NCBI GenBank assembly: GCA_028282805.1 | Contig: JANQHD010000024.1 | Location: 62,001 to 126,000 of the forward strand | Origin: Phycisphaeraceae bacterium | Lineage (GTDB): Bacteria; Planctomycetota; Phycisphaerae; Phycisphaerales; Zrk34 | Reading direction: 5' to 3' | Length of the DNA: 64,000 nt | Part shown: one piece after another, positions 1 through 3,560 of the stretch | Layout: every line of letters starts with the position of its first letter | Position numbering within the stretch: the stretch's first letter is position 1 | Notes under the pieces: generated by a model | Seen by the model: the letters and a program-made list of their open reading frames with translations, nothing else | What the model was told of the DNA's origin: nothing | The model's database searches: none | Position numbers and translations under genes: made by a program

Positions 1-1796
1 ATGATGACCTCGCGCTTCTGCGTGCGGACCTCGTCGCTGCGGAACGCCCCGCCCACGACGGGCAGGTCGCCGAGCAGCGGCACCTTGTCGCGCACGGAGG
101 TCATGTCTTTCTCGACGAGGCCGCCGATGATGAACGGCGTGTTGTTGGCGATGCGGCCGTAGGTCTGCACGCGCCGCGTGGCGATGGTGGGGGCCTCGGC
201 GAGGATGTCGCCGCCGGCGTCGCGGATGATCAGCTCTTCGCCGGGCACCTCGGCGGAGACGATGCCGTCGATCTGCATCGACACCTCCTCGTCGTCCGCG
301 GCGATGCGCGGGCGCACGTTCAGCAGGATGCCCACGGGGATGTACGAGAACTGGAAGCTGATGCGGTCGCCGCCGCGCAGGCCCGAGGCGCTGGTGGCGA
401 CGGGGATCTCACGCCCCACACGCAGCGACGCCTGGCGGTTGTCCAGCGTCAGCACGCTCGGGCGGGAGAGGATCTCCGCCTGGCCGTTGCGGATCAGCGC
501 CTGGAGTTGTGCGTTGAAATGGCCGAACACGTCGTTGATCGAGATGTCGAGCGTCGGCTCATCACCCGTCGCGAAATCGGGCAGCCGGCCGAGCTTGATG
601 TCGTCGACGTTGCTGAACGGTTCGTTGTTGAAGGGCGTGTTCAGTTCCCACTTGACGCCGAGTTCCTTGAGGCCGGTCTCGCTGATCTCGAGCACCATGG
701 CCTCGATGAGGATCTGCTTGGCGGGCACGTCGATGGTCTTGCGGATGCGGTCGACGACCTCGGAGAACTGCTCGGGGTGGGCGGGGTGGTACATGACCAT
801 CAGGTCCATGACCGGCGCCGCGGAGGTGCGTGCGGGCAGGCTGGTTGGCAGCGAGGGTGTCATGGTCAGGCCGAACGCGCCCTTCGTGCCGCCGGTGCCG
901 CCGACGAGGTCGGTGCTGGACGCGCCGGGCATCGACACGATCACGGGCAGCTTTTTGACGTCGATGTTGCCGGAGGGCTGGACGATCTCTTCCTTGCCCA
1001 GCCCCTTGCCGCCGGGCTTGTACTCGACGGTCTGGTAGCCGAGCGTTTTGAGCATGCCCAGGCAGCGGTCGGCCTCGATGTAGCTGAGCGTGAGGGTGCT
1101 GGTCGCCAGGTCGCGCGGGGCGACGGTGGCGTACTGCTTGTCGAGCGCCTTGCGCCCTTCGGCGAGGTGTTTTTCGACGGCGCTGATGTCGGCGTTGGCC
1201 TTGGGTTGGGCGCCGTCGGCGAGGGTCAGGCCGTGCACGTAGATGTGCGGGGGCTGGCTGCGGAAGGTCTTGTAACCGATGCGGATCATGCGCAGGCCGC
1301 CGGGCGCCTGGCGTGCGAGGGTGCGGATGCCGTGCACGCCCTCGGGGGTGGCGGTGAGGTTCGCGGCCAGCGCGTCGCCGGCCTCGGTGTAGCCGTGCTG
1401 TGTGCTGAGGCGGGTGATGGCCACGTCGATCAGCTCTTCGACCTCGATGCGGTTGAGGCCGGGCATGGGGATGAAGGTGCTGATCGCGGGTTGAGCTTTG
1501 GGCTGGGGTTTGGGGGCCGGTTTCGGCGCGGGCTTGGGTGGCGCTTTGGGCGCGGGCTTCGGTTGGGCCGCCGGTTGCTTGGCGGGTGGGGCGGCCTTGG
1601 GCGTTTGCTTGGGCGCGGGCCTGGCGTCCTGGGCCAGCGCGGGCGTCGCAACGTAGCTCATCAAGCCCATCAGCACCCCGACGAGCAACAGGCGCAGCGT
1701 CGGCCAAGTGCCGCTGGCTTCGGGGTCCCGCTGATCGGGTGCGGGCGGTGGGTCGAACGGGCTTTCGTTGAGGGCGTCGTTGACACCGGTGCGCAT
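1..1796 (-). CDS. Secretin (type II/IV pilus-type outer-membrane channel), 3' end outside window
   Basis: Outer-membrane secretin subunit of a type II secretion or type IV pilus-like system. The C-terminal part reads TPFIIGGLVEK, then VPLLGDLPVVGGAFRS and KREVII, the secretin-domain signature. Upstream lie N-domain-like segments and a Pro/Ala/Lys-rich linker (about residues 60-95) after a hydrophobic stretch ending ATPALA, a probable signal peptidase site. ATG at 1796 is chosen because GGAGG (1802-1806) lies 5 bases upstream. The n-region of about 34 residues is long for a signal peptide. No stop codon separates this frame from the ABC gene upstream, so a fused product cannot be excluded. No other secretion genes are visible. 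Confidence 0.87.
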   Translation of the reverse strand, partial: MRTGVNDALNESPFDPPPAPDQRDPEASGTWPTLRLLLVGVLMGLMSYVATPALAQDARPAPKQTPKAAPPAKQPAAQPKPAPKAPPKPAPKPAPKPQPKAQPAISTFIPMPGLNRIEVEELIDVAITRLSTQHGYTEAGDALAANLTATPEGVHGIRTLARQAPGGLRMIRIGYKTFRSQPPHIYVHGLTLADGAQPKANADISAVEKHLAEGRKALDKQYATVAPRDLATSTLTLSYIEADRCLGMLKTLGYQTVEYKPGGKGLGKEEIVQPSGNIDVKKLPVIVSMPGASSTDLVGGTGGTKGAFGLTMTPSLPTSLPARTSAAPVMDLMVMYHPAHPEQFSEVVDRIRKTIDVPAKQILIEAMVLEISETGLKELGVKWELNTPFNNEPFSNVDDIKLGRLPDFATGDEPTLDISINDVFGHFNAQLQALIRNGQAEILSRPSVLTLDNRQASLRVGREIPVATSASGLRGGDRISFQFSYIPVGILLNVRPRIAADDEEVSMQIDGIVSAEVPGEELIIRDAGGDILAEAPTIATRRVQTYGRIANNTPFIIGGLVEKDMTSVRDKVPLLGDLPVVGGAFRSDEVRTQKREVI

Positions 1797-3560
1797 CATG
1801 TCCTCCGCGTCGGCGTCCGGCGGGCCGGTGAACTCGATGCGCCCGTCGACGAGTTGCACGACCACGTCCGCGTGGCGGATCAGGTCGGGGTTGTGGGTGA
1901 TCATGAGGGTGGTCTTGCCTCGCATGAATTGCCGGATGGCGGGGATGATCTGGTCCTGGCTGGCCGCGTCGATGGAGGCGGTGGCCTCGTCGAGGATGAG
2001 GATGCGGGGGTTCTTGAGCATGGCGCGGGTGAGGGTGATGCGTTGCATCTCGCCGCGGCTGAGGGTCACGCCGTTCTCGCCCACGCGGGTCTGGTAGCCG
2101 TCGGGCAGCTTGGTGATGAACTCGTGGGCGCCGGTGTAGCGGGCGGTGTCGATGATCTGGCGCATCGTCGCGTCGGGCCGGGCGTAGCGCAGGTTCTCAA
2201 AGATCGAGGCGTTGAACAGGAAGCACTCCTGGAAGGCGATGCCGATCGAGCTGCGCAGGTGTTGCAGGTCGTACCTCCGCACGTCGACGCCGTCGACCAT
2301 CACCTGCCCGCAATTGGGGTCGAGGAAGCGCGGCACGAGGTTGACCAGCGTGCTCTTGCCGGCGCCGCTGGGCCCGACGATGGCGCACACTTGGCCGGCG
2401 GGGATGGTGAGGTTGACGTCGTCGAGCACGGGGCCGGCGTCGTCGTAGCCGAAGCCGACGCCGTGGAACTCGATGTCGCCGCGGATGGCGCGGAAGACCG
2501 GGTCTTCGCTGACCGGCTCGGTCTCGTCGTGGTCGAGCAGTTCGAACACGCGGTCGATGCACGCGGTGGCCCGGGTCATCTTCGCGAAGCTGCTCATCAG
2601 CTCGCCCACCGTGGGGTACAGCATGAGCACGTAGCCGTGGAACGCGAGGAAGTCGCCGGTCTTCATGTGCCCGGCGATCACCTGGTAGGCGCCGAAGCCG
2701 ATCAGCGACATGGTGCCGATGCCCACGAGCACGTCGGCGATGACCTTCTGCCACACGTGGTAGCGCTGGCTGCGGAGCTGGCTGTCACGCGAGGTGCCGA
2801 TGGCCTGCTGGAACTGCTGCTTCTCCCGGCGTTCGGCGCCGAAGCCCTTGACGACCTCCATGCCCAGGAACTTCTCGATCAGGTTGCCGTGCACGACGGC
2901 CAATTGGTGCTGGGCGACCTTGCTCGCTTCCTTGATCGGCCGACGGAAGTAGTAAAACGCGAACAGGTGCAACGGCAGCACGACCGTCGCCACGATCGCC
3001 AGCGGCCAGTTGATCGCGTACAGGAACGCCACCAGCCCCAGGAACATCAGCGTCGATTGCAGAAGCGTCGGCAGCGTGTCCTGGATGAACTGCTGCACCA
3101 CGAAGCTGTCGTTCATCACCCGGCTGGAGACCTTGCCGGGGTTGTTCTGCCGGTAGAACTTCAGCGACATCTGCTGGAGCTGCTCGAACAACCGCTTGCG
3201 CAGGGAGAAGGCGACGTTCTCGCCGAGCTGCACGATCTTGAACTTGCTGTTGAAGAACAGCACCTGCCGGGCGATGTAGACCGTGAGGAACCCGGCCAGC
3301 ACCATCCACAGGAACAGGATCCGGCCGTTGGCGAAGACCTCGTCGACCAGCACCTTGAGCATGAACGGCGGGGCGAGGTTGACCAGCACCAGCCCGAACA
3401 GCATCCCCAGCACGATCGATATCCGCCGGCCGTGCGGCAGCAGCAGCTGACCGAGGCGGCGCAGCGAGGAGTGCGAGTCGAGCAGGGAGTGTGGCTCATC
3501 GTCGTCCAAGGGCGAGCCGTCCTGCTTGCCGTTGGTCCAACGCTTGAATGACGCGATCAT
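1797..3560 (-). CDS. ABC exporter, fused membrane and ATPase domains (MsbA-like); frame runs on into the secretin
   Basis: Half-transporter with an N-terminal six-helix membrane domain (about residues 45-330) and a C-terminal nucleotide-binding domain (about 360-575). Walker A is GPSGAGKS (397-404), the Q-loop lies in AFQE, Walker B is ILILDEATAS and the switch histidine is in MITH. The signature motif reads LSRGE instead of LSGGQ, an unusual change. The substrate is unknown; lipid or drug-like molecules are typical for the family. Start ATG at 3560 follows AGGTGG. The reading frame has no stop at the natural end (after ..FTGPPDADAED) and continues in phase into the secretin; the end given here is the junction ATG, not a stop. 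Confidence 0.88.

Follow-up and report, generated by a model that had tools for sequence, protein, structure and literature searches.

The window analysed here, a stretch of 64,000 nucleotides from contig JANQHD010000024.1 of a Phycisphaeraceae bacterium, carries at one edge, on the minus strand, a single gene that joins an ABC exporter to a secretin. This fusion is a genuine gene that cannot be put down to chance or to faulty sequencing: the single frame is conserved among relatives, and a signal-like segment accompanied by cleavage motifs lies between its two parts. The scenario that we regard as probable is that of one precursor, which would be cut at the internal signal to yield an exporter and a secretin jointly forming an export route across the two membranes. 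Within this scenario, we strongly infer translation as one precursor and we infer cleavage from the sequence of the junction, whereas the joint function and the substrate of the two proteins are more speculative.

An open frame with exporter and secretin domains

As the first-pass annotation had described, the ABC ATPase and the secretin share one uninterrupted frame, which on the minus strand stays open from the ATG at 3560 to the window edge at position 1, with no stop. In the full contig (locus L008, whose positions equal those of the window plus 10000) the frame ends at L008 8974, and its product of 1528 aa contains Pfam domains of both proteins. The fused gene spans 1..3560 of the window (L008 8974-13560), with 1186 of its 1528 codons inside it, and all the features described below lie on the same strand.

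The exporter part comprises a transmembrane domain, ABC_membrane (PF00664, residues 53-312, 2625..3404, E 4.5e-36), and a nucleotide-binding domain (NBD), ABC_tran (PF00005, residues 379-528, 1977..2426, E 3.2e-31). The latter contains a Walker A motif (GPSGAGKST), a signature (LSRGE) and a Walker B motif (ILILDEA), with the His of the H-loop just after. By the presence of both domains and all four motifs in one chain, the ABC part is classified as an exporter half-transporter of the MsbA/ABCB type, and the solved structures related to it by sequence are likewise ABCB/MsbA. A more specific identity as the MsbA lipid A flippase was rejected, with a score of 361 bits against a cut-off of 602 for the NCBIfam equivalog TIGR02203, and the ABC part fell below the cut-offs of all the named NCBIfam exporter models shown, type I exporter equivalogs included. 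The genome holds only three ABC_membrane genes.

Between the NBD and the secretin, a fast-evolving cytosolic linker recognised by sequence comparison (1692..1814, boundary approximate) leads to a signal-peptide-like segment, LLLVGVLMGLMSYVATPALA (1632..1691), with a predicted signal peptidase I cleavage site ALA/QDA at 1632/1631. A periplasmic linker rich in Pro, Ala and Lys follows (1473..1631), and then the N-terminal region of the secretin (residues 697-918, 807..1472), which was delimited by alignment and a structure model and has no match to a Pfam N-domain. The secretin core (PF00263, residues 1021-1194, 1..500, E 6e-40) leaves the window, and 3' of it, beyond the window, sequence and model place a C-terminal domain of about 300 aa (L008 8977-9930). 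Neither this domain nor the signal-like segment had been pointed out in the first-pass annotation.

Membership of the secretin superfamily was clear, with 137 bits for PF00263 against a cut-off of 27.5 and a GspD-like fold. By sequence and by fold, the best matches of the core are GspD/PulD (Foldseek, PulD 1e-16). The GspD equivalog of type II secretion was rejected as an identity, its NCBIfam model scoring 171 bits against a cut-off of 351, and the Secretin_N Pfam domain was found in only one of 61 members of the family. The model of the full secretin reached a mean pLDDT of 81 and a pTM of 0.70; confidence was high over about the first 180 residues of the N-terminal region and low in some parts of the core. 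The C-terminal domain, present with about 300 aa in all 80 secretin loci checked, was modelled with a pLDDT of 91 and had no fold match in the PDB at E ≤0.001; it is possibly a new fold.

Signal segment, internal initiation and partners

A short hydrophobic segment resembling a signal peptide lies between the NBD and the secretin in every fused gene. In 17 fused genes its hydrophobic core ends in a lipobox-like Cys (17/17 of this lipobox group), and the 2424 residues of these 17 junctions that lie outside the signal include a single Cys. Within the scanned window, 16 of the 17 match a strict lipobox pattern, two of them (L055 and L057) at an earlier Cys, and the remaining locus, L059, has an NPGC site outside the strict pattern. 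On the other hand, a strict motif of the signal peptidase I type was present in 17 of the 18 remaining fused genes, although in a few of them the match lies off the obvious site; shuffled controls gave a mean of 3.7, and none of 2000 shuffles was as high as 17. Fused junctions hence display both an internal Sec signal and a cleavage motif, the combination looked for in a precursor. Moreover, the separate secretins of relatives start with an equivalent signal peptide, such as the lipobox SACVS of genome G026, and the topology fits, with the C-terminus of the exporter in the cytosol, the segment oriented N-in/C-out and the secretin in the periplasm. From the conserved cleavage motifs, the equivalent signal peptides of the separate secretins and this topology, the best reading of the junction is that signal peptidase would process a single precursor.

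According to this model, the ribosome would produce one precursor composed of the half-transporter, the cytosolic linker, the signal-like segment (N-in/C-out), the secretin and the large C-terminal domain. The Sec pathway would pass the secretin part across the membrane by means of the signal segment, and the chain would be cut by signal peptidase I or, in the lipobox lineages, by signal peptidase II. The exporter would be left in the inner membrane and the secretin would move to the outer one, their synthesis having been fixed at 1:1 by the fusion. Most likely, both would then constitute a route devoted to export, with the secretin as its exit channel, the role of TolC in type I secretion.

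The first-pass annotation had also pointed to a GGAGG-ACATG-ATG site at the junction, and this site is indeed there (1794..1806), with GGAGG at 1806-1802 and ATG codons at 1799-1797 and 1796-1794. It raised the possibility of two products, the fusion and a free secretin started at the ATG at 1799 or 1796, which we consider a credible but unlikely account. The GGAGG lies 5 nt from the second ATG, and GGAGG...ATG is kept in the sister genome G001. In addition, nearly all the split relatives (19 of 21), in which the ABC gene lies directly upstream of a separate secretin gene, have a Shine-Dalgarno (SD) core with an ATG at most 45 codons before the signal. In contrast, such a site was found in only 5 of the 35 fused genes, this genome being one of the five, and in 8 of the 35 when any start codon was allowed, for a background of 3% (ATG) and 11% (any start codon) in control windows. 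Internal initiation was consequently rejected as a general mechanism, the site being absent from most fused relatives, and the idea of two products stands as a possibility for this genus. It is compatible with cleavage of the precursor, and may provide some extra free secretin in the genus.

The neighbourhood of the gene bears on whether the two proteins work together. On one side of it, in this genome, we find a peptide-chain-release-factor gene, an aminotransferase and an aldehyde dehydrogenase, and on the other side genes of the rpmF/plsX/fab type, judged from sequence with no profile. Partner genes of type II secretion (T2SS) of the gspE/F/G type were not found beside the fused gene in this genome, and the T2SS ATPase family was absent among the neighbouring-gene representatives searched. 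Likewise, neither an HlyD-type adaptor nor a TolC-type protein appeared among the neighbours examined at the locus, and no substrate gene was identified near it. T2SS-type ATPases (T2SSE) and TolC-family genes do exist elsewhere in this genome, so a shortage of other systems does not explain the presence of this secretin. One group of split relatives has subtilase and glycosyltransferase/methyltransferase neighbours.

In some genomes the secretin has no ABC neighbour. Two such cases are G021 and G039 (L044 and L045), with no ABC gene within the fetched flanks; the neighbours at L044 include LpxR-like and PhoX genes. Moreover, members of this secretin family in Verrucomicrobiota, Kiritimatiellota and Lentisphaerota (21 loci) adjoin a gene for an MscS-like protein with a cyclic-nucleotide-binding (cNMP) domain, located upstream or downstream of the secretin (for instance L127 4275-5807 and L137 8413-9954, both on the plus strand). 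This pairing in other phyla suggests that the secretin may be an exit pore serving different inner-membrane partners. The loci with no ABC neighbour or with the MscS-like channel, together with the occurrence of two separate genes in some lineages, could also be taken to mean that the fusion couples expression only, the exporter and the secretin acting in different pathways. We hold this to be rather improbable, as the ABC-secretin pair, fused or adjacent, has been kept together across many families and in the distant Lentisphaeria and Puniceicoccaceae, whereas in the Phycisphaerales neighbourhoods nothing else is broadly conserved.

An uncut signal segment would give one ABC-transmembrane-secretin chain, tethered in the inner membrane with its secretin part in the outer one. 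Cleavage is predicted from motifs, and a motif match does not prove processing; in this genome the Pro-rich linker, several dozen residues long, could reach across part of the periplasm. However, both signal types show conserved motifs at the cleavage site, and in the separate relatives the equivalent segment serves as an ordinary signal peptide. A permanent 1:1 tether would be hard to assemble, since known secretins form 12-16-mers and exporters of the MsbA/ABCB type are dimeric. The tethered chain is therefore quite doubtful, and cleavage of the precursor stays as the preferred reading.

Recurrence and age of the fusion

The family, as recognised by the C-terminal domain of the secretin, is present in 70 of 400 genomes of the order. 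In 41 of these 70 the secretin belongs to a single frame 1310-1728 aa long, frames from 1310 aa upwards being scored as fused. One more fused genome, G001, was hidden from the 41 by a contig break: in this genome, the only other one sampled from the genus, the frame runs through the junction and the contig ends inside the secretin. Most of the genomes compared are metagenome assemblies, and the fused gene also occurs in strains ZRK32 and syqfu, whose chromosomes are complete. When 60 relatives were searched with the secretin part, its close orthologues lay for the most part in frames of 1310-1728 aa, and in the loci of 19 genomes ABC motifs and the secretin part share one frame. A contig scan of genomes added 80 further loci, and loci were sorted with HMMs of the ABC and secretin parts into fused, split, or secretin without ABC neighbour. 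The fused gene was found in records of Lentisphaeria and Puniceicoccaceae as well, and the secretin family is rare across the phylum (10 of 392 genomes in a phylum-wide sample).

Fused loci were picked by their open frame, and openness alone is no independent evidence; such evidence is provided by the repetition of the open frame, the conservation of the signal site and the in-frame evolution of the junction. In this regard, the linker changes fast, and its differences between close pairs are whole codons. Its dN/dS ranges from 0.20 to 0.47 in the five pairs that could be estimated below saturation; the distant pair G030/G046 gave 1.56, and two further pairs were not computable.

In the split relatives, the two genes often overlap, as ATGA or TGATG, and in G026 they are separate and in reversed order. 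The stop/start overlap in relatives, set out beforehand as a refuting observation, is therefore real, but it represents a second evolutionary state, found in separate clades. The ATGA overlap in the neighbouring frame of this genome resembles, at the sequence level, the split state of other lineages.

A secretin tree of 70 rows, obtained by a quick search under LG+C20 with SH-aLRT support, requires only 3 changes between the fused and the split state, which indicates an old, inherited fusion; on a larger tree, built under a simpler model, separating fused from everything else took 8 changes. Both are unrooted and come from quick searches, the direction, fusion or fission, not being given by them. 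As fused genes are placed on both sides of the deepest branches, few events of either kind suffice. Against this background, a one-base indel or assembly error that removed the stop of a truly separate ABC gene, the main alternative in the first-pass annotation, is scarcely credible: at the junction the +1 frame indeed gives ACA TGA, the stop/start overlap seen beforehand, and such overlaps exist in some relatives, but the open frame is common to the sister genome and to dozens of diverged relatives (the 41 of 70), complete chromosomes and old fused lineages among them.

Two irregular loci were also observed. In the fused gene of G024 (L051 4086-5270 and 5140-9069), the frame is interrupted between the transmembrane part of the exporter and its NBD, by either a sequencing error or a real frameshift. 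Near the fused gene of G030, a separate ORF of 104 aa (L049 2906-3217, minus strand) matches the end of the C-terminal domain of the secretin, a possible partial duplication of this domain.

Relation to known export systems

Secretins are the exit pores of the T2SS, the T3SS, type IV pili, the Tad system and filamentous phage, and ABC exporters reach the outside via TolC-type channels. No description of an ABC-secretin fusion was found in the open-access literature at the title/abstract level, nor any of Phycisphaerae secretins or MscS-secretin pairs at the same level. The idea of a fused exporter and outer-membrane channel as a new architecture consequently holds for the gene, while the mature products, with a signal-like segment at the junction, are most likely separate. 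Tentatively, we propose for PVC bacteria a two-part trans-envelope export machine unlike any named secretion system, where an ABC exporter would be directly coupled to a secretin through one precursor cut by signal peptidase, and whose secretin family, re-paired with an MscS-like channel in Verrucomicrobiota, would serve generally as the exit pore of various inner-membrane partners. An exporter-secretin gene conserved over the order and beyond is strong gene-fusion evidence that a route of export has gone unrecognised. The gene is also a natural example of a bacterial precursor destined for two membranes, whose cleavage would fall to signal peptidase I in some lineages and to signal peptidase II in others.

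The secretin shares with GspD/PulD of the T2SS the PF00263 core and its best sequence and fold matches. It differs in that 60 of 61 members lack a Pfam N-domain, and by an extra C-terminal domain of about 300 aa with no PDB fold match, a signal segment internal to the fusion and the absence of T2SS partner genes beside it in this genome. The closest bacterial parallel to a precursor cleaved at an internal signal is, to our knowledge, FbcH of Bradyrhizobium, the precursor of cytochromes b and c1. FbcH is a two-protein precursor split at an internal signal, as the fusion would be; it yields parts of a respiratory complex, whereas here an exporter and an outer-membrane channel are joined, and many lineages have a signal of the lipoprotein type. 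The lipobox versions of the fusion recall HxcQ, a self-targeting lipoprotein secretin, or liposecretin (PMC3542185).

Other ABC exporters also carry a fused extra domain, as in those with a C39 peptidase (PCAT), where it is an N-terminal cytosolic peptidase (PMC8277102); here, the extra domain is C-terminal and is an outer-membrane channel. In type I secretion of the HlyB-HlyD-TolC type and in tripartite ABC efflux, an ABC exporter is dedicated to a passive outer-membrane channel (PMC8277102). The fusion would follow the same plan of exporter plus outer-membrane channel. It departs from type I secretion in that no periplasmic adaptor was found near the fused gene, the outer-membrane part is a secretin and not a TolC-type protein, and both parts are encoded in one frame.
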